From: an uncultured Verrucomicrobiota bacterium
GTDB lineage: Bacteria > Verrucomicrobiota > Verrucomicrobiia > Opitutales > Opitutaceae
Direction of reading: 5' to 3'
DNA: 40,077 nucleotides
Assembly (NCBI GenBank): GCA_903960515.1
Contig: CAJCBL010000004.1
Coordinates: forward strand, 1 to 40,077
The notes under the pieces were generated by a model. That model did no database searches. It worked only from the letters and a program-made list of their open reading frames with translations, and was not told the DNA's origin. Position numbers and translations under genes: made by a program. Shown one piece after another: positions 8,531-39,262 of this stretch (position 1 is the first letter of the stretch; every line of letters begins with the position of its first letter).

Positions 8531-8642
8531 TTGCGGTCCGCCAGGAACGGCGAACGACCAACCATGAACCCGAAATCGAATGCACTTGGCCGCCCCACCG
8601 TGTTTACCTATCAACTACCAGCCATTGCCCCAAGAACCTGAC

Positions 8643-20976: not shown

Positions 20977-21926
20977 GTTTGTTGAACCGCGCTTCAGATG
21001 GAATGCACAGCGTATTGATTGTGCTGTTCGAACTGCTGTTGGCTGAAAAGACCGTCGCCCGCGAAAGGGTGATTGGCCTTTGTTCGCCTCCGCATGCCGT
21101 CGATTCCAAGCAGGTCGCCCAGACGCTCGGGACTTGGATCAAACTCGGTCTGTTCGACGAGGACGACAAGGGGAACATCATGATCCACGCCGACGTCCGC
21201 CGGGAAGAGAAGAATATCGAGGGGCTGGCCCGGCTCACGCGGCGGTTGGTCCTGCAGGAAAAGAATAACCGCAACTTGTACGCCGTCGAAGATTCGAAGG
21301 CGGCTGATTTCACGCGGGCGCTCTGCTGGATGCTGGCGCAGGATGTTTATTCGGTGTCGTTCGTCGGCTGGGACGATGTGCAGCGACGGATGATGCAGCA
21401 ATTGCCCGCGGACCTTTTGGGCGACGATGAGCAAAACCTCCGATTCATAACGAACAAGGAGCGGTGGGCTCCTATTAAGGCATGGATGGTCTGGTTCGGT
21501 TTCGCGTGGAACGGTTCGCACCCAGGCAAGGTGCTGGTGATGGACCCCACGGTCGCGATTCGCGATTCCCTGTCGGATATTTTTCCTCGCGTAGGGGCGA
21601 CCATTACCGGGAAGCAACTCATCTCCAGCTTGGCCGAGGCCATCCCGGTGCTCGATAGAGGTTGCTATCGCGTGGACATCGAATCGCGCTTAAAAGAGCA
21701 AACCGGTCCAGACGCTTGGGTCGCGCCGCCAAACAACCAACTGTCAACGAGCCTGAGTCGGGCGCTACTGCGCTTGGACGACGATGGAATCTTGAAGGCC
21801 ACGCGGAAGGACGATGCGCCCGATGACATCCGCGTTCTGCTCACCGGTCGGAACGGAGCGGTGCTGCACCAGTATTCCCATTTCAGTTTCCAACCGAAGG
21901 ACCGGAAATACTACAGTCATGGCTAA
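20973..21926 (+). CDS. dpdG: DpdG
   Basis: A 317-residue protein assigned as DpdG from its place between dpdF and dpdH and its general character. The N-terminal ~110 residues look like winged helix-turn-helix units (VLIVLFELLLAEKTVARERV; QTLGTWIKLGLFDEDDKGNI), suggesting DNA or protein binding. No catalytic motif is visible. The start at 20973 is fixed by the ATGA overlap with dpdF; upstream in-frame codons are inside dpdF. It overlaps dpdH by eight bases. Genetic work in S. Montevideo links dpdG to the restriction-like phenotype. The assignment depends partly on gene order. Confidence 0.75.
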   Translation: MSLLNRASDGMHSVLIVLFELLLAEKTVARERVIGLCSPPHAVDSKQVAQTLGTWIKLGLFDEDDKGNIMIHADVRREEKNIEGLARLTRRLVLQEKNNRNLYAVEDSKAADFTRALCWMLAQDVYSVSFVGWDDVQRRMMQQLPADLLGDDEQNLRFITNKERWAPIKAWMVWFGFAWNGSHPGKVLVMDPTVAIRDSLSDIFPRVGATITGKQLISSLAEAIPVLDRGCYRVDIESRLKEQTGPDAWVAPPNNQLSTSLSRALLRLDDDGILKATRKDDAPDDIRVLLTGRNGAVLHQYSHFSFQPKDRKYYSHG

Positions 21927-24900
21927 AATGGATCTCACTGGGTTCTGGCCCACGGTGGAGAACTGTGAGAACTGCCTCTTCACCGAGGCGGAGGTTGCCG
22001 ATGACGCCGTTTTCTTGGCGGTGCATCAGCCGATGCGGATTCTCTACAAGCTCCATAACGTAAACGCGCCAGGTGAAATCCGCGATGAGCATGAAGTGCT
22101 GAAGGCCTTCCTCGCCGCCAATCCGGCGAGTGCCACACTCGTTCTCCCAGTCATCGGAGGGTCGGGTGTCGGCAAATCCCATTTGATCCGTTGGCTTCAC
22201 GCAAACCTTCGTTTGCGGAGCGACCATGCCAAGCGCCATGTAGTTCGGATCCCGAAGAGCACCAGCCTGCGCGGTGTCCTCGACCTGATCCTGAATGATT
22301 TACCGGGGAGGGATTACAGCGCGTTACGCCAGAAATTTGCTGAGGCGCAGTTGCCTCCTTCGCTGTTGGAAGCTACCCGGCGCCTGCAGGCGAGTTTGCT
22401 GGTGTCGCTCGAACTTGCCGGAAAGGAAGTCCAAGAGCGGCGGCGCGAAAAGCGGCCGGAAAAAGACGACGACTTGCGCTCGGCGCACTGCTCCGAAAAA
22501 GGGTTGATCGCACTGCTGCAAGATCCGCAACTAGGGGCGCACTTCGCCGCCCAGGAGGGAAAGAACAAGGGTGTGCTCACCCGCATTGCAGACCGCTGTC
22601 TCAACGGCAGTAAGGAAAGCGATCAGGGGCCGCAGAACCAGTTTTTCGAATCGGACATCACTTCGGTTCTGTTGGAAACCAATACCGCGACGGTTACGCG
22701 GGCCTATCTGGCGATTCTCAAGCAACCGAAGCATTTAAAGGCGGCCGTTGGCTTCCTTAACGAAGTGGTCGACCGGGCCGTCGCCCAACTGGTCGATTTT
22801 CGCGGGGTATCCCTCTCGGAACTGTTCGTAGAGATTCGACGCAAACTCTTCGAGGACAACCGGGAGTTGGTCCTCCTCGTCGAGGACTTTGCGGTGCTCG
22901 CGGGCATACAGGAGCATTTGCTGGCCGCCATGGTTAAAGAGGGCATACGTGACGGGAAGCAGGAGCTTTGCACGATGCGGACTGCCTTGGCCGTAACGGA
23001 AGGACGGTTGCCGGAAAGCGTCATGACCCGTGCAAAGGCCACGTGGGAGATCGAACAGAAGCCGTTTCAAAACGAAACCGAAGCGGTCAATTGCTTTACT
23101 GATTTCGTTGGCGGCTATCTTAACGCCGCCCGCTGGGGGGCGGACAAGTTGCTCAAGGCATACAACGATGCTGGAGCCGACGAAAAGAGGAAGGCGGAAT
23201 GGATCCCGAATTTCTACGACGAGAACAATGCGCAGCTTTCAGAGGAAAATCGCAAGGTTCTCGAATCATTCGGGAAATCCCAGCGCGGCGACTGGTTGCT
23301 TTTCCCCTTCAATCGGGACGCAGTCCAGCAACTGGCCCGCAAGTTTTTACGCTCCGGCGACGCATTCAAGTACGAACCGCGGTTGCTCATCAACCAAATC
23401 CTCCGTGAGACACTGATGCCCTACCGGGATTCCTTCAGCCGGGGCGATTTTCCTGCCGCCGGTCTTTACCAATTTGCCGAAAACCAACTGGCGGTGGATG
23501 TGGGACGTGAGATCAAGGCCAAGGCCGGTTCGGCCGCTGCGCGCGTGGCGGTCGTCGTCCATTTCTGGGGTGGCGATCCGCGCAATTTAGGACAGGCCGC
23601 CGCTATTCCACCGCAGATCCTTCGGGCCTTCGGTCTCCCGGCGATCAATTGGGATGCCAAAGCCGAGCGCCGTCGGCCCGACACCTCGCCAACTCCGGCG
23701 CCCCAGCGTCCCAAGGAAGAACCCGAAGGAGATCCCGAAGGTCCTTGGCGTAAAACGCTCGATGAATGGCGCAGCACCGGTCGCATTGGCCAGAGTCACG
23801 CCGGCAAATTGCGCGAGTACCTAGACGACGCGATTCAGGAATGGCTCGATTGGGAAGCGCTGATGCTTCGCCCCGTCACCGTTCGTAACAAACGACTTTA
23901 TATCCCGGGAGCGCAACAATCCAATCCGGAACAGGGCGATGCGTTGGCGGTGGTCGCCACCGAAGCAGACCTGGAGGATCCCGAGCGGTCACTGCACTTC
24001 TTCACCGCGATGCGAGCTGTCGTCCGTTACCACATTCAGAAGGGTTGGGCTTACCCAGGTGGCGAACTCGACGCGGTAATCTACGCCAACCACATCGAGC
24101 ACTTGGCGACACAGGCGGCGGCATATTACCGGAACAACGGTAACGAATTGCGGCCGGAAGCTATCGTTCCTCTTTCTCAAGCATTGTTGCTGGGCGCACG
24201 TGTACTCAATTTGCCCGGCGGTTCGGCCAACACTGACGTGGAAAACATCGCGGCTATGTTTGCGCCCGTGGAGAAATTCCAGCCCAGCACCTTGGGCGAT
24301 GACTGGGCCGGTCTCTTGGCTTCAGCCAACCAAACCCGAACCGACCTACAGACACTACTGTTGAAGCTAGTGGGGGCTCGTCAGGGCGAGGGCCGCAACT
24401 GCCAAGCTGTCAATGGAGCCAAACTGACCGCGGCCATTGTCCAATTGCGCAAATCCGATTGGCAATTCGCCGAGGGCGTCGACCTGAAGCTGTTTCGTGA
24501 TCAGAGCCCGTCCATCACCGAGCACCTGCGGGAACTCAAGAAGATCAAGTCACTTGCTGAGCAACGAAAGCGCTGGCTGCACGATTGGCGCGAATTGGTG
24601 ACCGGTGCGTTCGGAGAGAACTTCGATCCCATCCAAGTGGGTGAACAGCTTCGGGAGATCATCAAAGCTGCGAACGATGAGGGCGTTTTCCGTCCGAAAG
24701 AACCGAGTCATGATCTCCTGCGCACCCGTCTTCGCGATATGGGGCCGATCAAGGAAAACCTTCTGTTGGCCGGAAAAGCGACCGAGGCAGATGCTAGTCT
24801 CGGTGTCGTTCTGTCATCCGTCGCGCAATCCGATGAGAAGACAATCGAGAAGGTGCGCACGCTCATCGAGGATTGCCGGCGGTTCCTGAAGGACACCGCA

Positions 24901-25023
24901 AGCGAAGTGAACGGTCGCTTGGAGGATACACCCGCCAGTCTGGATGATGTCTCCGACAAGATCGACGGCCTCTTCAAGGACTACGATGACTTGCTCAGCA
25001 AAGCGGAGGAGGAGTCCAAATGA
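21919..25023 (+). CDS. dpdH: DpdH, large P-loop ATPase
   Basis: A 1034-residue ATPase. Walker A is GGSGVGKS (residues 80-87) and a Walker B-like strand is LVLLVEDFA (317-325). The rest is mostly helical, with a charged, possibly coiled-coil C terminus (residues ~880-1034) and a proline-rich linker around residues 590-615. The start is ATG 21919, overlapping the end of dpdG by eight bases; ATG 21928 is an alternative. It overlaps dpdI by ATGA. The size, the N-terminal ATPase and the position between dpdG and dpdI support DpdH. Its partner is probably the adjacent DpdI or the helicases, as part of a restriction complex; this is inference. Confidence 0.8.
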   Translation: MAKMDLTGFWPTVENCENCLFTEAEVADDAVFLAVHQPMRILYKLHNVNAPGEIRDEHEVLKAFLAANPASATLVLPVIGGSGVGKSHLIRWLHANLRLRSDHAKRHVVRIPKSTSLRGVLDLILNDLPGRDYSALRQKFAEAQLPPSLLEATRRLQASLLVSLELAGKEVQERRREKRPEKDDDLRSAHCSEKGLIALLQDPQLGAHFAAQEGKNKGVLTRIADRCLNGSKESDQGPQNQFFESDITSVLLETNTATVTRAYLAILKQPKHLKAAVGFLNEVVDRAVAQLVDFRGVSLSELFVEIRRKLFEDNRELVLLVEDFAVLAGIQEHLLAAMVKEGIRDGKQELCTMRTALAVTEGRLPESVMTRAKATWEIEQKPFQNETEAVNCFTDFVGGYLNAARWGADKLLKAYNDAGADEKRKAEWIPNFYDENNAQLSEENRKVLESFGKSQRGDWLLFPFNRDAVQQLARKFLRSGDAFKYEPRLLINQILRETLMPYRDSFSRGDFPAAGLYQFAENQLAVDVGREIKAKAGSAAARVAVVVHFWGGDPRNLGQAAAIPPQILRAFGLPAINWDAKAERRRPDTSPTPAPQRPKEEPEGDPEGPWRKTLDEWRSTGRIGQSHAGKLREYLDDAIQEWLDWEALMLRPVTVRNKRLYIPGAQQSNPEQGDALAVVATEADLEDPERSLHFFTAMRAVVRYHIQKGWAYPGGELDAVIYANHIEHLATQAAAYYRNNGNELRPEAIVPLSQALLLGARVLNLPGGSANTDVENIAAMFAPVEKFQPSTLGDDWAGLLASANQTRTDLQTLLLKLVGARQGEGRNCQAVNGAKLTAAIVQLRKSDWQFAEGVDLKLFRDQSPSITEHLRELKKIKSLAEQRKRWLHDWRELVTGAFGENFDPIQVGEQLREIIKAANDEGVFRPKEPSHDLLRTRLRDMGPIKENLLLAGKATEADASLGVVLSSVAQSDEKTIEKVRTLIEDCRRFLKDTASEVNGRLEDTPASLDDVSDKIDGLFKDYDDLLSKAEEESK

Positions 25024-25757
25024 GCACTCCGAAATCTACTTTCCTGGCCCAGGCTACCGACCTTCAGGTCAAGATCGTTAAGATCGGATCTGCGGAGAAG
25101 AATAAGGAGTTGCTGAGTCATTTCAAAGGAGTGCATGAGGCGTTGGAGCAGCACGTGGCAAATGCGAAGAATCTGTTCGGCACCGGAAAACTTCTCCAGG
25201 ACCATGACTTGGTCCCGAAGGATTTTCTGCCACGGGGCAAGGTTGCCAGCGTAAGAAGGAAGATTGGAACCCTCCGCAAGCGCCTGAAGGAAAATCGCAG
25301 CGAGTTGATGACCCAAAATACCTGGGCCAGTTGTGAGAAGGAGGCCGGCGAAGTGGGCGACATCCTGAATACCAAACTCGGGGCGATCTGGGCCCAATAC
25401 ATTCGTGAACGGACCGAGAAAGCCGAACCGTTTGCACCCTTCCGCCAGATGGAAAGTTGTGCCGAGGTTCTCGGTGAGGTCGAGCGCGTCGCCCAGGAGC
25501 TTAATCAAGCGCTGGCAGACTTGCCGCGTTCGGAAGCGGATTTCGCCAAGGTCAAAAAAGCGGAAGCTAGGATCAGCAGCCTGATCGCCAAGCTTGATCT
25601 CGGTGACGTACCTAAACCCGTCGAACAATTTCTTAAACGGGCCAGCCAGTCCGGCGTGTCTCTGTCCGAACTTTCCGAAGACGTGCTCGAATGGCTTAAG
25701 AAGAAGAAGTTGACCGCCAACTTGCGTGTCAGCACGGCGACGCGTCCCCGCCCTTAA
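25020..25757 (+). CDS. dpdI: DpdI
   Basis: A 245-residue, strongly charged, helix-rich protein with no enzymatic motif. Stretches such as VASVRRKIGTLRKRLKENRS and KVKKAEARISSLIAKLD are likely coiled coil. The assignment as DpdI rests on its place after dpdH (ATGA overlap) and before dpdJ (one-base gap). It could bridge the DpdH ATPase and the DpdJ helicase. In S. Montevideo, dpdI is linked to the restriction-like phenotype. Identity as DpdI is likely, but I recognise it by context more than by sequence. Confidence 0.7.
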   Translation: MSTPKSTFLAQATDLQVKIVKIGSAEKNKELLSHFKGVHEALEQHVANAKNLFGTGKLLQDHDLVPKDFLPRGKVASVRRKIGTLRKRLKENRSELMTQNTWASCEKEAGEVGDILNTKLGAIWAQYIRERTEKAEPFAPFRQMESCAEVLGEVERVAQELNQALADLPRSEADFAKVKKAEARISSLIAKLDLGDVPKPVEQFLKRASQSGVSLSELSEDVLEWLKKKKLTANLRVSTATRPRP

Positions 25758-25758
25758 G

Positions 25759-28700
25759 ATGAGCAACCTGGTGGTCGATTTTCTCGGGCGAATCGAGCGA
25801 CAGGAAGCGGCCTTGCTTTCATGGGGTCTGGTGGACGGCGCGCTGGCCGAGAACGAATTGAGTCAGTTGGCGGACGACTTCCTGAGCGAGAACGACGACG
25901 ATAACGAGTTCTCCAGTCCATATCTTTTGCTCGAAGCGATGGTCAGCCGAGGATTGCTCTTCCGTTGGGACGAAGGCGGCAGCTACCGCTACCGGAGTCG
26001 TATGGCGGAGACGCTTCGATTGCTGGCGCGTCTCCGCCAGATGTTCCCACGGCACATGCGTCGCCCCGGTGACTGGGCATTGAGTCCAACCCTGGTCGCT
26101 GATTTCCGCTTTGTTCTTCGCCCTCGCGAGTACCCAAACCGCAATCTTCCTGCTGCCGCATGCGTTGACCGCTGGATCGCGGAGGGCATTCGTTTGTCGC
26201 CCCTGCAGCGTTCCGCCTTGAGCGCCATGCTCGGCCTCGGCAATAACCCGAATCCGCTCGCTGGGTTTCAGGACCGTGCAGCGGTTCGCATCCTAAGCGA
26301 GGTCGGTACCGGTCGAGCCACCGGTACGATGATCTGCGCCGGCACAGGTAGCGGCAAAACGCTCGCATTCTATACTCCCGCTCTGACTCATCTCGTGGGA
26401 ACCGTCGAACGCGACCCGGCCCACTTCGTCCGGGCGATTGCCCTCTATCCCCGCAATGCGCTTTTGATGGATCAATTCACGGAGGTCTTTCGCCAAACCA
26501 AGCGATTGAAGCCCGTCTTGGCGGCAGCGGGCCGCCGTCCCATTTGCGTCGCAGCCTATTTCGGTCCGACACCACGGCGCGCGACGGAAGTGGAGAATCC
26601 CGGCAAACGGGAATGGGCCCAGCATACCGAGGGCAGGGTATGTCCTTTTTTGGTTTGTCCCGAACGCGACTGCGGCGGGGCCATGATTTGGCGCAATGAT
26701 GACCGGGCCCAGAACCGGGAGCGTCTCGTTTGTGAATCCTGTTCGGTGTCGATTGAAGCGGAGGATATCATTCTCACCCGCGACCGCATGCTTCGTACTC
26801 CGCCTGATGTAATCTTCACCACAACGGAGATGATGAATCAGCGGATCACCGATTCGCGTTCCTATCACTTGTTCGGCATTGGCACCCCGATTAATCGCAA
26901 GCCATCACTTGTGTTGCTGGATGAAGCGCACACCTACCGGGGAGTATCTGGCGCCCAAGCCGCCTACTTGCTGCGACGCTGGCGATATTTCAGCCACGCG
27001 AAATGCCACTACGCGGGGCTGTCGGCGACGTTGATGGAAGCCGCATCGTTCTTTGCGCAACTGAGCGGGTTGGTTGCGGACGACGTGGAAGAGATTTCTC
27101 CGGAAACCGCGGAGATGATCAAGGAGGGCATGGAATACATGGTGGCGCTTCGGGGAGATCCCGTCTCAGGCGCTAGCCTGCTTTCCACGACGATCCAAAC
27201 TGCGATGCTCCTGCGGCGCGTCCTCGACCTGAACTCCTCCCAGCCTTCTGCCGGGATATTCGGGCGCAAAGTCTTCCTCTTCACCGATGATCTCGACGTG
27301 AAAAACCGCATGTATTTCACGTTGCTCGATGCGGAAGGCCAGGACGCCTACGGCCGTCCGGACCCAGCAAAAGCCGGTGGCTCGCTCGCGAATCTGCGTG
27401 CCACCACTTGGCCCGAGGATGATCGGCGCTTCGCCTTCGGCCAATCTTGGCGGTTAGCGGAGGACATCGGCCATGCCCTGCGGCCACAGAACTATATCCG
27501 CCTTGGCCGGGTGAGTTCGCAGGACGAAGGAGTGGATATTGAAGCAGAGGTGATCGTGGCGACCGCCTCGCTCGAGGTGGGCTTTAATGACCCCGCCGTC
27601 GGTGCGGTTCTCCAACACAAGGCTCCGCGCGATCCCGCTGCTTTCCTCCAGCGCAAGGGTCGCGCCGGCCGTCAGCGCGAGATGCGCCCGTGGACGGCTA
27701 TTGTTCTTTCTGACTTCGGACGGGATCGGCTGGCGTACCAGGCCTACGATCTTCTGTTCGACCCCGAACTGCGGCCGGGCGATTTGCCCCTGGGGAACCG
27801 GCACGTGCTCAAAATGCAGGCGGCGGGGGCCACCATGGATTGGATGGCGAACCAGTTGCGGTCACAAGGCGGGCATGTGTGGCGTGACGCAAGCTCGCCG
27901 ACTGGCTCGGGCACTGAAGCGTGGAGGGCAGCAAAACTTGCCCGCCAAAATGCGGCCGCCGCTATCATAGAGCGAGTCCTGCAGGGCAACGATGACCTGG
28001 ACAGCTTGTCGGACTGGTTGCGCCGCGCTCTGGGCCTCAGGACGGCCGCCGAGGTTCAACCTCTGTTGTGGGAGTCTCCCCGGGCTTTGATGACGGAAGT
28101 GTTGCCGACGTGGCTCCGTCGGTTGCGCACTCAGTGGCAGCGTGGTGCCGAAGTGGGGCAGGAATATCACTTGGGCAATCATCCCCTCCCTGAGTTCGTG
28201 CCGGGCACGCTTTTCAACGAACTCAATCTGCCGGAAGTGATGATCATGGCCTCACCCCGGCCTGGTCGTCCGGAAGACGAGTATCCCATGGCAATTTCCG
28301 CCGCTCTACGGGAATTCGCCCCGGGCCGCATCTCCCGCCGATTCGGCATCACTCATGGCATGTCCCGTCATTGGCTCCCCGTGGATCTCGCAGCCAACGG
28401 GGTACAGACGATTGATATCAACTCATTCTGCGCCGAATCGGAGCGAGATGATCTCGGACTGATGACGGTGCCCGCCACCGGCCAGTCAGTTCGCGTCATT
28501 CGCCCTTTCGTGATGCATGTCCGGTCTGATGCGCCGCGCGACCGAGTGAAGGATTCCTCTAACGCGTTTCTCGACTGGCAGAGTCGTTTTTTCCCACCCG
28601 ATGACCCGACCGCCGGCATGCGCTTTGATCTCCCGGTGGCGTCGCCATTGAGCGAAGTGGTCGACGAGATTCGCTTCTTCACCCATCGTCACTATCAACC

Positions 28701-30879
28701 GATCACCGTGTGGCGTTTCGCCGCCGGCGCCCACGCCACCATCAATTCTTCCGGCGGTGCAACGCTGGATCTGGCAAGCCGCTTTGTGTTGCGCGCCGGT
28801 GACCAAACTGAATCGGCGGCTCTCGGATTCTGTTTCGAGGTGGATGGAATTCGCATTCGGTTGCGCATTCCTTCCAATTGGAAACTCGGCGGCGACAGTC
28901 AATTTTCTGGTAAACTCCCCGCTTTGCGGGTTGCACGTTTCCGCTGGCGGTTGCTCAACGAACCTCGCTTTGACGGCCAACTCAATCACTTCGAGCGTAA
29001 CTGGCTCGGCGAAATCGCGGTCTCGGCAATCAGCGCCATTGCGGTTCGCGACCAATGGGATCTGCCGGCCGCTTGGGCGGCCATTCGTACCGGTAGCAGC
29101 AACCTGAATCTCTCCACAGTGCTGGACGTCATGTTCCAGACGTTGCCGACCGAAGAGGACGACCCCACCGCCCGAGTTGAACAGGCTCGGCTTCAGGAAT
29201 TGCGGCTGATGATCTCCAACGCCGCGCTCCTGGCGATCCTCGATGATTTGGTACCCGTCTTGTGGAATGCCCCCGATCCCTCCTGGGAACTGTGGTTGCG
29301 GGAAAGATATTCGGCGACCTTTGCGGCCGCATTTCGCGAAGCGGTGCAGCAAAGCTGCCCGGAGGTCGACGCGGGAGATTTGCTGATCGACCTCCAGACT
29401 GACGCGAATGACTTCACCTACGTCTGGGTGACGGAAGATGCGCCCGGTGGGGGCGGTATCATCGAGCGATTGTTCCCCACGCTTGCGGAGGCGCCTCGAC
29501 GTTTCCAGGACCTCGTGCACGCGGCCCTCGAGGAATCGGACTACGAGATTACCGACTCCGAACTCCAGCGGATCCTCCGTCTGGCCGCGAACGAGCCATC
29601 GTTGGCCCAAATGATGCGGGTCATCCGAGACGCTCCGAGTTTGGCTGAGCTTACGACTCAATTCCAAGCCTTCCGGGCAACGTTGAACGAACGGGGCATT
29701 CGCACCACGCATGGAGTGCTGGCCGGGTTGGCTGCTCGCGTTTTGCGACCGGGCAGCAACGACCAGACTGACCGCATCGCGCTCGGTCTCGCTGATCGCT
29801 GGACGCGGGAAGAGTCTCGCTTGGGACTCGAGATCGATCAGCGCCCGTTGGTCTACGCCATGAGTCACTCCGATGAACTGGATTCGGCGCTGAACAACGG
29901 CACCTTGCCAATCGGCCCCGACCAGGATCGCCGGATCTGGCGATTCAATGCCCTTTCCAGTATTGCCTGGGCACGTGGTTCGCATGCCCGCAACCAAGGT
30001 TTGGGGTTGTGGAGTCCTTATTCGTCGTCGCCGCTGCCCGAGCGATGGCTGCTGCTTGATTTGTTGGGAGCAAGAGAGCCAAGCGTTCAGTTCGGTGCTC
30101 CTGATTGGCGACGGCAGTGTGAGAACCTCCTTATTGAGAACGGCCGGGTGGCAGTAGTGGCTGATCGAGGTGATCTGGCCGCCCTGCGTCCCGCGTTGGT
30201 TGGATTGCTGGTCAACGCCCTCGATCTCGGATCACTGCTGGTGTATCCTCGACTGCGTGGCATCGAGCGGACTGCAACCGGCCTTGCTGTGTTACTTGAA
30301 CTCGTGACCGCAGGGCAGGTTAGTCCCGACGACGAGCCCGTGCCTGCATCGACGGCCCGGTTGATCGTGAAAACCGCCAAGGGGGAGCGGGATGAAGTCC
30401 GCGATCTTCTGGAGAGCTTGGTCGCCGTCGAGTTGCTGGCCCCGGGCGATGAACTGTGGCTTGTCTCCCCCTGGGTTTCCGATTTGGCGCTCTTGGACAA
30501 TCGGTCCGGCGGTTACGATGGTCTCGAACCGGTCTGGCCGAAGCGTCATCTATCGCTGGCGGAACTGATCGTCTTCGCGCTGCGCCGCAATCCGGCGCTT
30601 CGGGTTAAAGTCGTAACACGTCCCGTTGAGCACAACCAACGATTCTGCTCCCGACTCCGCAATCTCGCCGACTTGGAAGGTTGCTCGGACCGACTCGTGA
30701 TCGATAGCACCCGCGAAGAACTCCATACGAAAGGGCTCATCGCTACCACGTTTGCGCTGAACGGCTCGATGAACTTCACTCGTAGCGGTGTGGAGGTGCT
30801 CGAAGAAACGGTCCAACTGGAAACCGAATCCTCCCGGATCGGGCAGTTCCGGATTAACATGCACGGGCATTATCCATGA
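25759..30879 (+). CDS. dpdJ: DpdJ helicase fused to a C-terminal PLD (DpdK-like) domain
   Basis: A 1706-residue protein. The N-terminal part is a DEAH superfamily 2 helicase: Walker A GTGSGKT (195-201), a four- or five-cysteine insert (C295, C300, C305, C325, C328) likely to bind zinc, DEAH (388-391), GLSATLMEA, and the arginine-finger motif KGRAGRQRE around residue 633. A long middle part (about 700-1450) has no motif I can name. The last ~250 residues look like a phospholipase D-type nuclease unit: ELWLVSPWVSDLALLDN, then HTKGLIATTFALNGSMN with His1656, Lys1658 and Asn1672; the usual Asp of HxKxxxxD is Thr. In S. Montevideo, dpdJ and the PLD gene dpdK are separate. The ATG is one base after dpdI, and the 3' end overlaps dpdD by ATGA. 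Confidence 0.82.
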   Translation: MSNLVVDFLGRIERQEAALLSWGLVDGALAENELSQLADDFLSENDDDNEFSSPYLLLEAMVSRGLLFRWDEGGSYRYRSRMAETLRLLARLRQMFPRHMRRPGDWALSPTLVADFRFVLRPREYPNRNLPAAACVDRWIAEGIRLSPLQRSALSAMLGLGNNPNPLAGFQDRAAVRILSEVGTGRATGTMICAGTGSGKTLAFYTPALTHLVGTVERDPAHFVRAIALYPRNALLMDQFTEVFRQTKRLKPVLAAAGRRPICVAAYFGPTPRRATEVENPGKREWAQHTEGRVCPFLVCPERDCGGAMIWRNDDRAQNRERLVCESCSVSIEAEDIILTRDRMLRTPPDVIFTTTEMMNQRITDSRSYHLFGIGTPINRKPSLVLLDEAHTYRGVSGAQAAYLLRRWRYFSHAKCHYAGLSATLMEAASFFAQLSGLVADDVEEISPETAEMIKEGMEYMVALRGDPVSGASLLSTTIQTAMLLRRVLDLNSSQPSAGIFGRKVFLFTDDLDVKNRMYFTLLDAEGQDAYGRPDPAKAGGSLANLRATTWPEDDRRFAFGQSWRLAEDIGHALRPQNYIRLGRVSSQDEGVDIEAEVIVATASLEVGFNDPAVGAVLQHKAPRDPAAFLQRKGRAGRQREMRPWTAIVLSDFGRDRLAYQAYDLLFDPELRPGDLPLGNRHVLKMQAAGATMDWMANQLRSQGGHVWRDASSPTGSGTEAWRAAKLARQNAAAAIIERVLQGNDDLDSLSDWLRRALGLRTAAEVQPLLWESPRALMTEVLPTWLRRLRTQWQRGAEVGQEYHLGNHPLPEFVPGTLFNELNLPEVMIMASPRPGRPEDEYPMAISAALREFAPGRISRRFGITHGMSRHWLPVDLAANGVQTIDINSFCAESERDDLGLMTVPATGQSVRVIRPFVMHVRSDAPRDRVKDSSNAFLDWQSRFFPPDDPTAGMRFDLPVASPLSEVVDEIRFFTHRHYQPITVWRFAAGAHATINSSGGATLDLASRFVLRAGDQTESAALGFCFEVDGIRIRLRIPSNWKLGGDSQFSGKLPALRVARFRWRLLNEPRFDGQLNHFERNWLGEIAVSAISAIAVRDQWDLPAAWAAIRTGSSNLNLSTVLDVMFQTLPTEEDDPTARVEQARLQELRLMISNAALLAILDDLVPVLWNAPDPSWELWLRERYSATFAAAFREAVQQSCPEVDAGDLLIDLQTDANDFTYVWVTEDAPGGGGIIERLFPTLAEAPRRFQDLVHAALEESDYEITDSELQRILRLAANEPSLAQMMRVIRDAPSLAELTTQFQAFRATLNERGIRTTHGVLAGLAARVLRPGSNDQTDRIALGLADRWTREESRLGLEIDQRPLVYAMSHSDELDSALNNGTLPIGPDQDRRIWRFNALSSIAWARGSHARNQGLGLWSPYSSSPLPERWLLLDLLGAREPSVQFGAPDWRRQCENLLIENGRVAVVADRGDLAALRPALVGLLVNALDLGSLLVYPRLRGIERTATGLAVLLELVTAGQVSPDDEPVPASTARLIVKTAKGERDEVRDLLESLVAVELLAPGDELWLVSPWVSDLALLDNRSGGYDGLEPVWPKRHLSLAELIVFALRRNPALRVKVVTRPVEHNQRFCSRLRNLADLEGCSDRLVIDSTREELHTKGLIATTFALNGSMNFTRSGVEVLEETVQLETESSRIGQFRINMHGHYP

Positions 30880-33134
30880 ACCTTGCGCGATGGTCAGAGG
30901 AGGACTTGCAAGCACTGCGGGCGTTTTACGACGCCGGCCAGGCATTCACCTTCGCGGACATCGAGGCAGGCAGTTCGGAATTGCTCCAAGATGTACAGGA
31001 CTGGTTGGTGACCAGTCCGCCGCCCAAGCGTTTCCCGGTTGTGCTGCCGGCCTGTCCGGTGTCGGTCCGGGAACCCTGTTGGTACGCCATAGCCTTTAGT
31101 TCCAGCCAAGCAGAACAACTCCGCCGCGAATTGATCGCCTTCGTCGGGATGGCCGGAACCGACTTTACCGGTCACCGGGTTGCATCCGACCCAACTGACC
31201 GAGTTTTGCAGGCGGCCGCGAACTGGGCTGGAGGCGAGTTCGTTTTCCGGTTCAGCGTCCATCTGCCGGCTTCGCGATCGGGCGTACGCACCGCGCTAGA
31301 TCGACTCCGCCAGATTTGGCGGATGCGGCCTGATCTCGGGGCCTCCTCATTTCGCACTTCCGATGCGCTGTTGCGCGAGTTCACCGCGGCATTGGCGGCT
31401 CAGGATGCTTCGGGTTCGGAACGGTGGCTGCAGGCCATTCGGCAATCGGGCCGTCTCAGCGTTGAGAACCTCCGTTTCCTGGAGATCGAACGACTCGGCT
31501 CGCTCGGATATTGGGATCAACTGGCGCTGCATCCCCAGTTGTCGCTGCTGCTCACGATCCGGCGTCCTCGCCGGATCAATGCGTGGTTGATCGAAGCGTT
31601 TTGGCGCTCCGAATTCGTCCGCTTTCTGGATTCGAATCAGCCGAGCGCGGCGCTCGCCCATATGCGGGATAACTTCCTGAAGAAGTACGAACCGCTTTTC
31701 AGGACTCGGGCGGGTTTGAACGGACCGAATGTGGTTCTGAGCTTTCTGCTGGTAGCGGCGGTCTCGGATCCGCCCCGCCACGAGCAAATACCGCAGTTGC
31801 TGGCCGCGTTGTCCCCAGGAACCCCTGAGCGCGCATTTGCGGAACGCATCGCAGCAACGGTGACGGCGCCGGCGGGCACAACTGAGGTCACGCTCGCCGA
31901 TGTAGAGCAACTCATCGACCGGGAGGACTACGACACCGCCTGGCCCCACCTGATTCGGCTCACTCCTTCAGTCGAAGTTGTCCAAATCTGTTTCATTTGC
32001 GCGACTGAACTTAACACGCCGGAAGCCGCTCGAACTGCCCTCGGAATCTTCGGTTCACTTTCGGCCGCGGATCAGGCCCGTATCCTTCGCCAGCGCCGCT
32101 ATCTGAATCAGCGCGATGACTTGGTGAATGCCAGCGCCGCTGCTAACCTGGTCGGTAGTTGGGAGCAATGGTTGGACAAGCTGCAGTCTGATCCTGCTTG
32201 GAGTCAGGCGGCGGAAATCGCTCGTGCCGGCGCCACCGATTGGTCGTGGGACGATTTTCAACACGACCCCGCCCGCATTATCCGTCTCGCGGCCCGTTTG
32301 CAGGAGGTCGCGCCCTCCAATACCCTCACGGTACGGTTTGTCCTGCCCAGCATTGCAGCCTTTTTCCTTCGCGCAGATGAACCGACGCCCGCGTTCATGC
32401 CGCTATGGGAGTCAGTGTTGTTCATGCTGGCAGTTGATCGCCAGTTTGGCGGCGCTGATTGGGCTCTCACCCAAGCGTTGACGGCTGCCATCCTGGAAAC
32501 CGGCCCAACGGCTGCGTCCTATGCGGACATGGTAGAGGGGCTCCGTACAATTTGGGACACCCGGGGGGAGCCTGCCCGATTAGACTGGGCGCTAGATCAC
32601 CTTGATGTGCTGGCTACTTCGCCGGTGCTCGATGCTGCTGCCCGTGAGTCGTTTTTCCACAGTGTGCGGGGCACGTTTGTTCACTCCGCCCGACGTATTG
32701 CGCCGGCTCAACGCGAACTCTTCCGCCTGCTTTGCGCTGACCTTGGTCACCAGGATGATTTCGCGGCGTTGCCGGCGCCCCCGCGCGTTGCCGGCGGCGC
32801 AGCAGATGAAGGGGGTATGCCCAGCCTGAGGGACAAGATCGTTGCCATATACACGCTTACTGCATCGGCGGCAGCGCGAGCCAAGGTCCTCATTGAGCAA
32901 CAATTTCCCGGAGTAGACGTTCGCCTCAACCACGAGCACGTGGGGAGTCCTCGACTCGCAACCTTGGCCCGCGAGGCAGACTATTTTCTGGTGGTGGCGA
33001 AGAGCGCGAAACACGCAGCGACGGATTTCCTGAAGGCCAATCGGCCTGGCCGCTCGGAGTTGATCTACCCCAGCGGTCGGGGGTCATCGAGCATTGTCAG
33101 CGCACTGCTCGAGACGGTTCGGGCGGGCCAGTGA
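30876..33134 (+). CDS. dpdD: DpdD
   Basis: A 752-residue protein, last gene of the plus-strand dpd operon, starting on ATGA shared with dpdJ. Most of it is helical without recognised motifs. The C-terminal ~95 residues (from LRDKIVAIYTLTASAAARAK) look like a small Rossmann-type domain resembling DUF2325, with ADYFLVVAKSAKHAATDFL and a final GRGSSSIVSAL. I assign DpdD because the other dpd proteins are accounted for and because dpdD belongs to the restriction-linked set. The gene ends 199 bp before the convergent dpdA-dpdB fusion; I see no clear terminator in that gap. Confidence 0.7.
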   Translation: MNLARWSEEDLQALRAFYDAGQAFTFADIEAGSSELLQDVQDWLVTSPPPKRFPVVLPACPVSVREPCWYAIAFSSSQAEQLRRELIAFVGMAGTDFTGHRVASDPTDRVLQAAANWAGGEFVFRFSVHLPASRSGVRTALDRLRQIWRMRPDLGASSFRTSDALLREFTAALAAQDASGSERWLQAIRQSGRLSVENLRFLEIERLGSLGYWDQLALHPQLSLLLTIRRPRRINAWLIEAFWRSEFVRFLDSNQPSAALAHMRDNFLKKYEPLFRTRAGLNGPNVVLSFLLVAAVSDPPRHEQIPQLLAALSPGTPERAFAERIAATVTAPAGTTEVTLADVEQLIDREDYDTAWPHLIRLTPSVEVVQICFICATELNTPEAARTALGIFGSLSAADQARILRQRRYLNQRDDLVNASAAANLVGSWEQWLDKLQSDPAWSQAAEIARAGATDWSWDDFQHDPARIIRLAARLQEVAPSNTLTVRFVLPSIAAFFLRADEPTPAFMPLWESVLFMLAVDRQFGGADWALTQALTAAILETGPTAASYADMVEGLRTIWDTRGEPARLDWALDHLDVLATSPVLDAAARESFFHSVRGTFVHSARRIAPAQRELFRLLCADLGHQDDFAALPAPPRVAGGAADEGGMPSLRDKIVAIYTLTASAAARAKVLIEQQFPGVDVRLNHEHVGSPRLATLAREADYFLVVAKSAKHAATDFLKANRPGRSELIYPSGRGSSSIVSALLETVRAGQ

Positions 33135-33333: not shown

Positions 33334-35712
33334 TTAGTTTTCATCGACCGATTGTTCGGATCCGCTCCCGTCCCCTGGCCCGCCCGCGTCATCTCGCTTC
33401 GGGTCGACTCTCCCGAGATATGCGCGGATCAAGTGGTTCGTCAGGTGATCGATGTCTCGATTGGTGTTCTGCAGGCCATCCCAAGGCAGAACCACGTTTT
33501 TCCCAAAGCGCCATATGCCCGAGGTCCATGCCGTGTATGGCGCGATCCTCTCCAACTCCTGCCTGAATTCATATATGTTCCAGTCTCGCCCAGCGCGTTT
33601 GATTCGAAATGCCACCGTGTCCATAAGGAAACCTAGGCTCACGATTCCCACTCCATGAGTGAGCCGACTCTCCCGTGGAGGCAGCAACCAAGCATCCGGA
33701 AACACATCCCGAGTCGCGCTCCAAAATGCGACAAGAAGGTTGGCTCGTTTCCGATCTGATTCAGGAAATTGGCCAAGCAAACCGTTGCTTGTGCTGTTTT
33801 CGATCATCCGCAATACCGACACATCTTTAATATTCGCGGTTTCGTGGTGGATAGATGTTGTTGTCCGGATTCTTTGGAAGAATGGGGACGCGGGATCCGA
33901 CTCCAGTATCCCGAGGATGCGATAGGCCGCCTGTCTGGTCCTCAAGCGAGGCGGCACCATGTCGCCAATAGACGGGAGCAACTCGTAGACGAGGCTCTTG
34001 GGCAATGGCCGGGTGTTGTTTATCAGAACGAATAGTTGCCGTTCGTCATTTTCTCCGGCAGATTCGATAGCGGTTATTGGCACCACGATGTCGGAACGTT
34101 GCGAGCGTCGGAGAGCTGCAAACCTTTGTTGCCCATCAACCACAAACCCGGCTTTATCCACATCATCAACAGGAACCTCGAGTGTCCCGGCAGCGACAGT
34201 TGCATTATCGTTACTATCCGGCACGAAATTAAGTGGTCGGTTGAATGCGATAATCAACGCATTGGCTAGAACCGAGCCCCGCCCATCAAGATACTCACGG
34301 ATTTCCTCGATGTGATTCTCGATCTCCGGTCGTTGATAACCAACGAGATCACCATTACTGCTCCTCGATACGCGCGAGACTGTTGCGAACTTGGCAATTT
34401 CTTTGCCGTTGACTGCAAATGTGTAGATCGAGCGCCCATCGGTTTGTTTGATTCGGATGCATGGAGTTTTCATAAACCTTCTTTCTCGCACAGATTTCAG
34501 ACGTTGATAGAATGCCCAAAGATTGTGAATGCCTCGGCGTTTGTGTCGGTTTAGTCCGCGATGCAGCAGAACCTCGACACCCAACTCCCGGCAGATCGAA
34601 CACGGACAGCGTTCCCACGGTCGATCCCGCAATGTCCGCTCGTATTCCGTCCCAAATGCAGTATCCCTTCCTAATAATTCATCATAGGCACGGACTGCCT
34701 CCAGCGCATCATTGACAGACTGGGTGCCTTCCCCTACGGCGCGTATCCGATCTAACGCTTGCCGCTCGGTTACCCGAGCTTGATCTCCATCCAGCACGCC
34801 GCTCTTTATCAGCCTACCTACCGCCGCTTCAGCGAGTCCCGTCACGCGGATCGCAGTGTACGATAGCCCTTCCGGTGTGATGTAGTTTCCACTATCATTT
34901 TTGAAGGACCGCAGAATGGGCGCGGTGCTGTCAAGGGACGAAACTCCCAACGCATGAAAATCATCCAGATGATCTGTGCGATTAAAGCCGAACAGGTGTA
35001 GCTTGGCTTCAGGAGGAATCGCGGTCCGAATTTCTGTCACCAAGCGCAAAATGTCCTCGGTCCGTGAGCCAACAATCCCGCCCAGGCCGATGTATTCGTA
35101 TCCATAACTGATCAAAAGTCTTGCCGCGTCGATCGCCGATTTCCGACTCCAGCACTGAATTGCGCCAAGCGGTGTAAAGGACACCCGCTTCTCCCGACAG
35201 AGTGCGATGAACTGCTTCGCTAATGAGAGCGTGACTGCAAAGCGCGTACTTACTCCTGCTGGTCTGAGGTTTCGCCTGTCCCAGTCTTCGTTCAGTCCCG
35301 AGATTATGTGGTCGGGGGCAACCCCGATCTGCACTTTGCAGGACTCGTAAAATGCGATCAGTTCCTCCGGTTCGACAGGGGGAACTTCTTCTCGAATATA
35401 TGAAAACGCACCACAATCCCCCATGATCGGGAACTCGCTCGGATCGCCCTTGAACCCCGGCTTTGGGTACCGGATATAGTCCCGAATCCCTTCTCGTAAG
35501 ACCGCGAATTTCTGGGATTGCGAGTATCGCCCCTGCGTCGCTCCGTCTGCAAATAGCGCCCTGGAAACTAGCACCCCGTCGTAGGGCGGCGTTTCAAGCA
35601 CCTCATGGGGCAATAGATCATAACGCCGGTTCCTACCAACGTTTGGTCGGTCGGACTGGAAGTTGTAGTCCGGATCTACGCTGTCGCAGTTGTCTGCAAA
35701 GAAGAATTTCAC
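33334..35712 (-). CDS. dpdA-dpdB: DpdA-DpdB fusion: DNA transglycosylase plus DGQQR protein
   Basis: A 792-residue in-frame fusion. Residues 1-~410 are a DpdA (TGT-fold) domain that should exchange guanine in DNA for preQ0. It has GDCGAFSY with Asp99, PDH with Asp134, GAIQCW with Gln186, SLDST with the expected nucleophile Asp261, and a zinc site Cys369, Cys371, Cys374, His396. Residues 414-792 are a DpdB module with DGQQR at 526-530, similar throughout to the separate DpdB next door. The start is GTG at 35712: it overlaps the dpdB stop (TAGTG) and gives an N terminus (KFFFADN) matching the other DpdA (QFFLPES); an ATG at 35841 would lie deep within dpdB. Met414, at 34473, is preceded by AGAAAGAAGG and could be an internal start for free DpdB. 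Confidence 0.88.
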   Translation of the reverse strand: MKFFFADNCDSVDPDYNFQSDRPNVGRNRRYDLLPHEVLETPPYDGVLVSRALFADGATQGRYSQSQKFAVLREGIRDYIRYPKPGFKGDPSEFPIMGDCGAFSYIREEVPPVEPEELIAFYESCKVQIGVAPDHIISGLNEDWDRRNLRPAGVSTRFAVTLSLAKQFIALCREKRVSFTPLGAIQCWSRKSAIDAARLLISYGYEYIGLGGIVGSRTEDILRLVTEIRTAIPPEAKLHLFGFNRTDHLDDFHALGVSSLDSTAPILRSFKNDSGNYITPEGLSYTAIRVTGLAEAAVGRLIKSGVLDGDQARVTERQALDRIRAVGEGTQSVNDALEAVRAYDELLGRDTAFGTEYERTLRDRPWERCPCSICRELGVEVLLHRGLNRHKRRGIHNLWAFYQRLKSVRERRFMKTPCIRIKQTDGRSIYTFAVNGKEIAKFATVSRVSRSSNGDLVGYQRPEIENHIEEIREYLDGRGSVLANALIIAFNRPLNFVPDSNDNATVAAGTLEVPVDDVDKAGFVVDGQQRFAALRRSQRSDIVVPITAIESAGENDERQLFVLINNTRPLPKSLVYELLPSIGDMVPPRLRTRQAAYRILGILESDPASPFFQRIRTTTSIHHETANIKDVSVLRMIENSTSNGLLGQFPESDRKRANLLVAFWSATRDVFPDAWLLPPRESRLTHGVGIVSLGFLMDTVAFRIKRAGRDWNIYEFRQELERIAPYTAWTSGIWRFGKNVVLPWDGLQNTNRDIDHLTNHLIRAYLGRVDPKRDDAGGPGDGSGSEQSVDEN

Positions 35713-36833
35713 TAGGGGGGCGGGAATTGTCCGGTATATACTGCGATCAAAGCACGCGTTAGGTCGCGGATATTGGTCGGATTGTTCTGCGGTGCATTCC
35801 AGGGTATCCCGGCCAGTATCTCCCAGTTGCCTTCCGTCCACGCACAGTGAGGCTTCAACCTTTCAAGATACCGGCGGATTTCGTGCGGTGTTTCTGGATC
35901 GCTTGGGTGCAGGTTTGCCATGATTCGGTCCATCAGAACGCCCATCGATCTAATGCCTACGCCATTCATCAGACGACTCTCTGAAGGTGACCGCCCCCAC
36001 GCCTCTGGGAAACATTCCTTCACCTCAGACCAAAATAGGTTCATCACCTTGCGGATCGCATCGATATCAGTCTCTCCACTTGCGCTGTTGCGATACTGGT
36101 AAAGGCATCCGTGGGGATCGTTCATACTTTTCCGAATCACGAGCAGCAGACTGGTGTCGGTGATAACCGCCGCCTTGTTCTCCTTTAGGTCAGTGGTTTC
36201 CCGAATGAGCAGCCCTTTGAATGGCGATTCGGGGTCTTGGTTGAGGATGTCACACAAAGCCGATGGGATTCGGTTCTTTGCGAAACTCTGTGGCAGGGTT
36301 GTGTTTACGGCCGGGAGTAATTCGTTGATCAACCCGATCGGCAGTGGTTTCACTTTGTTGACTAAAAGAAACTGAGTCCTCTGAACCTGGAAGTCGTCCG
36401 TAACGAACGCCGTCACTGGAACGAGAAGCCTTTGCTTTGACGAACGGGAGAGAGCTAGAGTCCGCTGCTGGCCGTCTACGATCCATGCCGCCCTCTTTCC
36501 TCCGATAGGGGTAGGAATGGCTAGAGTCCCAGCCTGGCATCCCTCGTTTCCCACTTTCGGACCGCGACTCTGCTTGAATCGGACGTCCGATGAGAGCGCG
36601 AGCAGAATGGCATTCGGAAACAGCACCTCGCCGGAATTCAAATAGTCAGTGATTTCGGCAACGTGCTGACGGACTTCGCCGCGTTGATAGCCGAGCAACT
36701 CGCCCCCGCCGTCTTTCTTGACCCTTGAGATTTCAGCGATTCCGAGAATCTCTTCACCGGTCAAAAAGAACGAGAAAACCGGGATGTCCGGAATCTGATT
36801 GATTTTGAGCGCACGAACTTCGATAGTATTCAT
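35712..36833 (-). CDS. dpdB: DpdB (separate copy), DGQQR protein
   Basis: A 373-residue protein of the DpdB family, ParB/DndB-like with a DGQxR motif (DGQQR at residues 120-124 in WIVDGQQRTLALSR). In S. Montevideo, DpdA and DpdB together are necessary and sufficient to put preQ0 in DNA, with DpdB thought to assist through ATP-related or DNA-binding activity. The ATG overlaps the stop of the upstream gene (ATGA), and its stop overlaps the GTG of the fusion gene. Its N terminus (FFLTGEEILGIAEISRV) and QRGEVRQHVAEITDYL align with the DpdB half of the fusion, but the two are clearly divergent, so this is not a recent tandem duplicate. Confidence 0.85.
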   Translation of the reverse strand: MNTIEVRALKINQIPDIPVFSFFLTGEEILGIAEISRVKKDGGGELLGYQRGEVRQHVAEITDYLNSGEVLFPNAILLALSSDVRFKQSRGPKVGNEGCQAGTLAIPTPIGGKRAAWIVDGQQRTLALSRSSKQRLLVPVTAFVTDDFQVQRTQFLLVNKVKPLPIGLINELLPAVNTTLPQSFAKNRIPSALCDILNQDPESPFKGLLIRETTDLKENKAAVITDTSLLLVIRKSMNDPHGCLYQYRNSASGETDIDAIRKVMNLFWSEVKECFPEAWGRSPSESRLMNGVGIRSMGVLMDRIMANLHPSDPETPHEIRRYLERLKPHCAWTEGNWEILAGIPWNAPQNNPTNIRDLTRALIAVYTGQFPPP

Positions 36834-37819
36834 TTTGGGTCGAACAGTCGTCCTTGATTGGATTCAACGAAGCGCCGGAACAGCGCTCCGAATCGCTTTT
36901 GCTCACAAGAGAGCCCTTTGGAATCCCTTAGATGGCGAAGCAGTGCCGAAGCTGAGGTACCGAACGTGGAAAAGTGTGCCTGAATATAGTGCATGACCTC
37001 TTCGTCGGTCATTGGCGCGACCGGTTTCCTCACTGGATCGGGGAGCCCTTCGCCTATCCTTTTCATTACTTCGAAGACCTTTCCGTTCCCCTCCGCCAAC
37101 GCGTCGGCGTGCGCGGTGATCAGCCAGTTGGCCAGTCTTGCGTTAAGGCTCACGTTAGTTTTGTCGAGATACGGATCCACAGCCTTGAACCTGTCATTGA
37201 ACGGAAGCACTCGCGCTCGCACTACTGGCGAGATAGCCGAAAGGTTCGCAAAGACGCCGGCACTGACAATGTAGATCCGCTTCCCGGCAGCTATGAGTTC
37301 CGCCACCTCACGCTCTACAGCTCCGAAATACTCGCGTGAGAGAATCAGCACGATCACCTCCTCCCCTCCGCATCCTCCGAATCGCTCTGCAAGATTGGTC
37401 CGACCCCATGCGTTGTTGAGCAACCGCCACCATTCCGCCTGATTCTCGCGGACTGAGTTCTCTCTAGGCCACTTGAGATTCAGCATGCTGTCGGGTCCCG
37501 CGGCAAAAGACGCCGCGTAGTTCGCAATTGGCGTTCGATCGTCGATAAGCCCGTATCCAGCTGAAAGCACAAGAAGCTCAGGCGAGTCGAACTTCTCCCG
37601 CGCTGACGCTACGCAATTCAACGATTCCCGCCAATGCGACCCTAGGTAGACGTCCGATGCCGGTGCGGTAGCTTCAGAGCCTCCAAGGCTTTCGACCCAC
37701 CGTTTCACGGCAAACTTCGGATCCATGCCGTTCTGGCATCTCAAGCACCGGTCCGGCTCAGTCGGACCGCGCTTTTGATTCGTGCATGTGGTGATAATTG
37801 TCAGTTTCCGAGCAGCCAT
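36830..37819 (-). CDS. dpdC: Probable DpdC (preQ0-in-DNA to amide conversion)
   Basis: A 329-residue protein beginning KLTIITTCTNQKRG with a nearby Cys pair (CLRC), then LVLSAGYGLIDD followed by ANYAASF. This order resembles the DUF6884/YaaA-like group. A C-terminal helical part includes MTDEEVMHYIQAHFSTFG, possibly a small winged-helix unit. In S. Montevideo, dpdC is needed after DpdA/DpdB to turn deoxy-preQ0 into dADG. Here it sits between dpdA and dpdB and overlaps dpdB by ATGA, the right place for a modification gene, and no other candidate exists in the window. The DpdC assignment is therefore by context plus a loose family resemblance. A different nucleotide-processing role is possible. 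Confidence 0.62.
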   Translation of the reverse strand: MAARKLTIITTCTNQKRGPTEPDRCLRCQNGMDPKFAVKRWVESLGGSEATAPASDVYLGSHWRESLNCVASAREKFDSPELLVLSAGYGLIDDRTPIANYAASFAAGPDSMLNLKWPRENSVRENQAEWWRLLNNAWGRTNLAERFGGCGGEEVIVLILSREYFGAVEREVAELIAAGKRIYIVSAGVFANLSAISPVVRARVLPFNDRFKAVDPYLDKTNVSLNARLANWLITAHADALAEGNGKVFEVMKRIGEGLPDPVRKPVAPMTDEEVMHYIQAHFSTFGTSASALLRHLRDSKGLSCEQKRFGALFRRFVESNQGRLFDPK

Positions 37820-37972: not shown

Positions 37973-39262
37973 CTACCCCTTGCGCTGAAGTTCAAATCGC
38001 TTCTGCTTGAAAGCCTCGTAGAAAACCCAGGTGTTGTGGAAACCGCGGCGGCGGTTGCGATCATTGCCCCGGAGGATCACTACCTCTACTCCTATCTCCC
38101 GGCAGATTGCACATGGGCAAGATTCCCACGGGCGGTCTCGCAGTGTTTCCTCGAAGTCACGGTAGGCCTTTCGACTTTCCCCAAACTCGTCGTCATAGGC
38201 GACCAACGCTTTCATCGCCTCCGTGAGATCAATTTCCCGGCGGGCGTAACTACGGACCCGCGCGAGGGCCTCTTGCTCGAGTCTACTCAATCGCTCTAGC
38301 ACTTTTTGGGCGGCAATCCGCTTCAATTCTTTTTCGGCGTCATCTTCGTCGCCATTTTCTAACCACGGTTTCAGAATTTTCCGAACCTTGGGAGACCGAT
38401 GCTGCCCCCCTGCAGTCGATGGAATTCGAACTGCGGTGTAGTTCTTTGCCGGCGAGTGGTAGTTCTCCTTGTCGCTCTTGAACGCCTGAAAAATTGTCGA
38501 TGCACTGTCGCACGAAACGACGCCTGCGGCCAGATAATCATCCATCAGCGAGAGTCGTGCGACTCCAAATAGGTGGAACTGCGCAATCCTGTGCAGTCCA
38601 CCGCGCACCAACTCCGCCAACACCAACCTGATATCCTTGTCCGATGCTCGAGCTAGCCCCCCAATGGCGATGTACCTGTACCCGATCGCAGCAAGTCGCT
38701 CGACGCAGGAACGATAGGACTTCGGGCTCCATCCCTGAGCCGCTCCGATCAACTCGTACCGGTACCCGCCCCGTTGATGGATCGCCCACATTTCCTCCGC
38801 GCCAGAGATCGTGATATCCATTCGGCGCCTCGCCTCAACTGGAACCTCGCGCGCCAGAAGCGCTGATTCAGAATCGAAGTCGGGGTCAAACTCGACAATT
38901 ACGTGGTCAAGAGTCACGCCATAGTTGACTCCGATCTTGGCGTAGAATTCACAGGTATCGACCGGCGAATAGGGCGGTCGTTCCAAACCAACATACTGGA
39001 ACGCGCCTGAGTCGCTGATAACCGGTATAGATATCGGGATTGAGAGGAATTGATGAATTCCGCCAACATTCGCGATCTCGGCCAGCTTTTTTTCATCTAC
39101 GGTCGAACGACTTACAAGCACGCCATCGCAGGGTAATCCGCCAAGCAATTGATGCGCGTACACGTCGTGTCTGGTAGATTTCCCGCACCCATATCGGTCC
39201 GCAAGAAAGTCAAAATGCCGATCGACCAGGTCGTCTGACTCAGGGAGAAAGAATTGCATCAC
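37973..39262 (-). CDS. dpdA: DpdA (separate copy), DNA guanine transglycosylase
   Basis: A 429-residue TGT-family protein of the DpdA type, predicted to cleave guanine from DNA and insert preQ0. Key residues are present: SDSGAFQY with Asp84, LDH with Asp119, GAAQGW with Gln176, CDS with the expected nucleophile Asp252, and zinc ligands Cys382, Cys384, Cys387 and His409. Gene order and the short zinc-to-end tail separate it from tRNA TGT. ATG 39262 is followed by a second ATG at 39259, and a GAGAGAG stretch lies upstream. It is the first gene of the minus-strand modification operon, and a TATAAT box precedes it. It resembles the DpdA half of the fusion in layout but is strongly divergent. Confidence 0.88.
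   Translation of the reverse strand: MMQFFLPESDDLVDRHFDFLADRYGCGKSTRHDVYAHQLLGGLPCDGVLVSRSTVDEKKLAEIANVGGIHQFLSIPISIPVISDSGAFQYVGLERPPYSPVDTCEFYAKIGVNYGVTLDHVIVEFDPDFDSESALLAREVPVEARRRMDITISGAEEMWAIHQRGGYRYELIGAAQGWSPKSYRSCVERLAAIGYRYIAIGGLARASDKDIRLVLAELVRGGLHRIAQFHLFGVARLSLMDDYLAAGVVSCDSASTIFQAFKSDKENYHSPAKNYTAVRIPSTAGGQHRSPKVRKILKPWLENGDEDDAEKELKRIAAQKVLERLSRLEQEALARVRSYARREIDLTEAMKALVAYDDEFGESRKAYRDFEETLRDRPWESCPCAICREIGVEVVILRGNDRNRRRGFHNTWVFYEAFKQKRFELQRKG

Follow-up and report, generated by a model that had tools for sequence, protein, structure and literature searches.

In-frame fusion of dpdA and dpdB2 in a Dpd DNA-modification/restriction island of an uncultured Opitutaceae bacterium

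In TGT chemistry, a nucleophilic aspartate displaces guanine, and the resulting covalent DNA intermediate is resolved by preQ0. DpdB is described as a ParB-like ATPase needed for the insertion of preQ0 into DNA (PMC12839542), and the remark in the preliminary description of the locus that the role of DpdB was unclear is therefore out of date. In the window, i.e., the whole analyzed stretch of DNA (40,077 nucleotides), the gene at 35712–33334 is very likely a genuine in-frame fusion of dpdA and dpdB2 lying within a complete Dpd DNA-modification/restriction island, as represented in one assembly.

The fused gene and its two halves

The gene was a single open frame of 792 codons running from 35712 to 33334 on the minus strand, with a GTG start and a TAA stop. 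Since the raw ORF was open upstream of the GTG, residue numbers in the raw ORF equal the protein numbering used here plus 43. The start at 35712 fits both the DpdA profile, which begins at residue 1, and the overlap with the preceding gene, as the GTG shares one base with the dpdB1 stop codon (TAGTG). The following parts were distinguished:

34492–35712, minus strand: DpdA half, residues 1–407, a TGT-fold DNA-guanine transglycosylase (NF041059, 7ui4, conserved residues)
34474–34491, minus strand: junction, residues 408–413 (VRERRF), predicted helix 387–410 leading into strand 412–424
33430–34473, minus strand: DpdB half of the B2 type, residues 414–761 (NF041060, tree, ParB fold), with a helical domain after the NTPase fold
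33334–33429, minus strand: C-terminal tail, residues 762–792 and stop, of low confidence (pLDDT < 50 from residue 775)

A DpdA–DpdB fusion in one polypeptide had been proposed from the letters of the sequence, and the separate profile search of the two halves bore this out. Residues 1–407 covered positions 1–405 of 406 of the DpdA family NF041059 (423.6 bits; curated NCBIfam cut-off 200 bits), and residues 414–761 covered positions 1–352 of 352 of the DpdB family NF041060 (380.4 bits; cut-off 300 bits). PADLOC assigned residues 1–410 to DpdA and 413–767 to DpdB, in agreement with NCBIfam. The continuity of the frame over 792 codons, together with two complete adjacent family matches, rules out chance. 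All of the functional residues named in the preliminary description were in place in the alignments: D99, D134, D261, C369, C371, C374, and H396 were invariant and Q186 nearly invariant among 11 DpdAs, so that the TGT-type catalytic Asp pair and the CxCxxC...H zinc site are present in the DpdA half, while DGQQR (residues 526–530), a form of the DGQ(Q/H)R motif, was invariant among 35 DpdBs.

The predicted DpdA half superposed on the crystal structure of S. Montevideo DpdA (7ui4; Z = 45.7, 1.9 Å, 401 residues). The DpdB half modelled alone (pLDDT 84.9) had an N-terminal domain with a ParB-type NTPase fold; in a second look, its 13 best structure matches were ParB, Noc, KorB, or PadC (best Z = 8.3, approximately 95 residues), and sulfiredoxin was also among the fold matches of the N-terminal domain. 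Foldseek alone gave weak matches for this half (best E = 0.08), and no solved structure of a DpdB relative was found by sequence search. The whole fusion was modelled with AlphaFold2 using 20 window, genome, and viral-contig sequences (mean pLDDT 85.6; pTM 0.60, too low for confidence in how the two halves are oriented to each other). According to this model, helix 387–410, which holds part of the zinc site, continues directly into the first strand of DpdB (412–424, pLDDT approximately 86–88), so the structure prediction of the junction suggested earlier gave a continuous helix entering the DpdB fold, and the junction is predicted to lack a flexible linker.

No fused homologues were found among genome contigs, plasmids, phages, and viral contigs, or in samples of the family, order, class, and phylum of the window. 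The DpdA–DpdB fusion is complete, very likely real, and unique within the sequence sets searched here. Every relative examined had separate dpdA and dpdB genes; this architecture is not a strict criterion, and the fused gene is a variant of the Dpd system that remains a member of it. Two other long proteins were considered as related fusions and rejected, namely, those of 778 aa (G118, L049 1773–4109) and 805 aa (G910, L050 1304–3721); both had a weak DpdB/DGQHR-like part from approximately residue 245–260, an N-terminal part without assignment, and no DpdA match.

The Dpd island and the two DpdB types

The fusion was accompanied by the following genes:

37973–39262, minus strand: second, separate DpdA with the catalytic residues kept (NF041059, 382.5 bits; alignment)
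36830–37819, minus strand: DpdC, DUF6884/YaaA-like (PADLOC DpdC, 139 bits)
35712–36833, minus strand: separate DpdB of the B1 type (NF041060, 412.6 bits; B1 group in the tree)
30876–33134, plus strand: DpdD (family match)
25726–30879, plus strand: DpdJ–DpdK fusion of 1717 aa (NF041067 at 20–1528, NF041068 at 1545–1716)
25020–25757, plus strand: DpdI-like protein (NF041066, 61.6 bits, below the cut-off of 150)
21814–25023, plus strand: DpdH (family match)
20883–21926, plus strand: DpdG (family match)
18454–20976, plus strand: DpdF (family match)
15173–18457, plus strand: DpdE (family match)
12260–14962, plus strand: preQ0 supply, namely, QueC, QueD, QueE, and FolE2 (family match)

The plus strand carried an integrase, MetK, the preQ0 genes, DpdE–K, and DpdD, and the convergent minus strand carried the lone DpdA, DpdC, and the lone DpdB, all directly upstream of the fusion. 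Thus, dpdA, dpdB, dpdC, the restriction genes D–K, and the preQ0 genes occurred together as in a Dpd island, with DpdI detected only below the cut-off. That DpdA and DpdB each occur twice in the island is absent from the preliminary description. DpdJ and DpdK were separate genes in Enterobacter, Agrobacterium, and Paenibacillus; in Paenibacillus, where they share a frame, a single stop separates them. It should be noted that the island contained a methionine adenosyltransferase (MetK) gene (4078–5193, plus strand), and that no match to a methyltransferase family was found among the genes scanned. Between MetK and the preQ0 genes, all on the plus strand, were an AAA_5-type ATPase (5222–6670), two proteins without a family match (7118–8530 and 9001–9711), and a WYL/WCX regulator (10327–11385); the genes at 5222–11385 are possibly a second defence module.

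The order dpdB1-dpdA-dpdB2 was found at 15 loci, namely, in Poribacteria (L007), on plasmids (L008–L011, L013–L015, L040, and L041), on a faecal phage-like scaffold (L018), on a viral contig (L019), and in genomes of the class (L044 and L045) and the family (L048) of the window; at one more locus (G700), it was split over two contigs. In these relatives, dpdC usually preceded the three genes and queE-queD-queC often followed them, and all 15 contiguous loci kept both B1 and B2. Phylogenetic analysis of the DpdB sequences separated B2 from B1, with 19 rows in the B2 group (support 92/100). The fused DpdB half fell into the B2 group as sister to the Poribacteria B2 (99/97), and the lone DpdB of the window was of the B1 type, sister to the Poribacteria B1 (100/97). 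Loci with a single DpdB (Enterobacter and Euzebya) carried the B2 type, and no B1-only locus was found among the loci examined, which identifies the fusion partner as the core DpdB. The two-DpdB loci are in line with the GATOR-GC survey, in which dpdB was the gene with the most extra copies (801; PMC11888242).

The position of the fused DpdA in the DpdA tree was weakly supported (81/68). The lone DpdA was 36% identical to it and branched outside the DpdB-associated DpdAs, which were united without the lone DpdA by a fork with support of 99/97; it formed a long branch near DpdC–DpdA fusion proteins whose loci have no adjacent DpdB. To judge from this placement, the lone DpdA may work without DpdB and on a target of its own. 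The DpdC–DpdA fusion proteins (DUF6884 N-terminus followed by DpdA; L043 5077–7221, L051, L053, L054, L055, L021, and L023) were found in cyanobacteria, Paenibacillus, and viral contigs, and a DndB-family gene was located close to those of Allocoleopsis and Scytonema.

Origin and proposed function of the fusion

In 17 relatives, dpdA lay directly before dpdB2, and in none of them were the genes fused: in 15, the two genes were in different frames, mostly overlapping, and in two, they shared a frame and were separated by a single stop. In the genome of the window's family (L048), the TAA of dpdA, three codons, and the ATG of dpdB2 followed one another in one frame. In Poribacteria (L007, 1420–2904), dpdA and dpdB2 shared one frame, interrupted once where the third codon of dpdB2 is TAG, and no usual start codon followed shortly afterwards. 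This locus was considered as a second fusion, as the match extended across the TAG (248–769), and was rejected: the L007 genome encodes a normal release factor 1 (523.8 bits), and the TAG is therefore a stop. The dpdB2 of L007 may start at ATT, or its TAG may reflect an error or decay. The suggestion that two adjacent genes had merged agrees well with these relatives, in which dpdA and dpdB2 are adjacent, overlapping, or parted by one in-frame stop. The fusion would have originated by stop loss or by a one-base shift between the adjacent genes; judging from the same-frame pairs of L048 and L007, one substitution or small indel would be enough.

An assembly or sequencing error, in which a single wrong base (a lost stop or a one-base indel) near 34470–34505 (approximately 36 bases) joins the frames of genes that are separate in the cell, is considered very improbable, although the genome is an assembly of 379 contigs, the relatives are unfused, a single stop alone parts the same-frame genes of L048 and L007, and no conserved residues hold the short stretch that contains the junction. 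Such a mistake would have had to fall within just this stretch, whereas the other genes on the contig are intact and no long homopolymer is present at the junction. Moreover, relatives start DpdB2 approximately six residues before a conserved Pro, and the fusion has Arg at this position instead of a start codon, as expected of a true fusion and of a gene no longer needing its own start. The only Met near the start of the fused DpdB2 lies three residues before the conserved Pro. Internal initiation at this Met414, which would also yield free DpdB2, so that the fusion would be only partly used and its stoichiometry not fixed, is an unlikely reading. Its in-frame ATG (34473) is located exactly at the start of the DpdB profile, three residues downstream of where DpdB2 usually starts, and is preceded by the purine-rich AGAAAGAAGG, a modest Shine–Dalgarno-like site (−5.4 kcal/mol) with a hybridisation energy better than that of several island starts; however, 26% of the background ATGs reach such a score, and the three-base spacing is short.

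As DpdA and DpdB are each present twice in the island, the fused copy can also be regarded as a decayed or regulatory paralogue, with the separate DpdA and DpdB1 performing the modification. The fused DpdA departed at 20 of the 98 columns invariant in nine DpdAs from other organisms, including Gly187, which is replaced by Cys; however, the lone DpdA departed at more columns (28). In addition, the fused protein keeps all catalytic and zinc residues as well as 28 of the 28 columns invariant in other DpdBs, its 792 codons are free of stops, and it is the fused pair, and not the lone DpdA, that occupies the conserved dpdC-B1-A-B2 position. The alignments gave no sign of a dead DpdA or DpdB copy in the island, with the motifs kept in all copies, and such a paralogue is highly unlikely.

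In a genuine fusion, the DpdA half would swap guanine in DNA for preQ0, with Asp261 as the nucleophile, Asp99 as the general acid/base, and a zinc site of C369/C371/C374/H396. The DpdB half, a putative ParB-type NTPase with DGQQR in the nucleotide-binding motif and tethered directly to the C-terminal helix of DpdA, would supply the ATP-dependent insertion step in cis. The separate DpdB1, encoded in the same operon, would probably make up the other part of a B1–B2 NTPase assembly, and DpdC would then convert dPreQ0 to dADG. Catalysis, the use of ATP in cis, and B1–B2 pairing are what we infer for the fusion system. The fusion had been taken to argue for a 1:1 partnership of DpdA and DpdB. The physical partnership is a reasonable conclusion and a 1:1 pairing of A with B2 is plausible, whereas a simple 1:1 complex does not follow from it, given the free B1 and the 15 loci that keep both B1 and B2; as B1 is present and conserved, a B1–B2 assembly is to be expected rather than a bare 1:1 complex, and with B1 and the lone DpdA present, the working complex may hold more than A and B2. 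DpdC reportedly acts independently of DpdA and DpdB in vitro (work of 2023), and DpdA–DpdC fusions nevertheless exist elsewhere, so two proteins may be fused without being partners in catalysis. A rather doubtful extension is that the fusion is an ATP-driven enzyme for DNA base exchange, self-contained in a single chain, joined by B1 in a heteromeric B1–B2 NTPase and accompanied by a DpdB-independent DpdA with a second target specificity.

Comparison with known systems

With both modules in one chain predicted to lack a flexible linker, the natural fusion offers a ready single-protein object for structural work and assays. Of the two DpdB types, the fusion marks B2 as the direct partner of DpdA, and the conserved B1 and B2 pair suggests that the NTPase of many Dpd systems is heteromeric. 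The fusion is of relevance for specialists working on DNA modification and on phage defence. No description of a DpdA–DpdB fusion was found in the literature searched; the primary Dpd papers (2016, 2018, and 2023) may mention one.

The DpdC–DpdA proteins of Nostoc, Allocoleopsis, Picosynechococcus, Scytonema, and Paenibacillus (e.g., WP_015211588.1 and WP_062436786.1) are likewise in-frame fusions of two dpdABC members, but their partner is DpdC at the N-terminus and not DpdB at the C-terminus; thus, dpdABC members fuse in more than one way. ParB-CTPase-fold fusions (PMC12704722) and DndB resemble the window fusion in that a ParB-type NTPase domain is joined to another enzyme. A DndB-like protein binds ATP and GTP. 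In contrast to the window fusion, DndB regulates phosphorothioation, and the main text of the survey does not name any fusion with TGT or DpdA.

The dpdC-dpdB1-dpdA-dpdB2-queE-queD-queC islands of Alphaproteobacteria (Caulobacter, Methylobacterium, Agrobacterium, and Sinorhizobium plasmids) have the same gene order and the same two DpdB types as the window, whereas their four dpd genes are all separate and no second DpdA was seen at the locus. With the known Dpd system, the window shares the DpdA and DpdB families, DpdC–K, and the preQ0 supply, and its modification and restriction operons face each other, as in a related Enterobacter plasmid (L012). It differs in the fused dpdA-dpdB, the two DpdAs, the two DpdBs, and the fused dpdJ-dpdK. 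The Dpd system itself is already known, and the dpdA-dpdB fusion is a variant within it.
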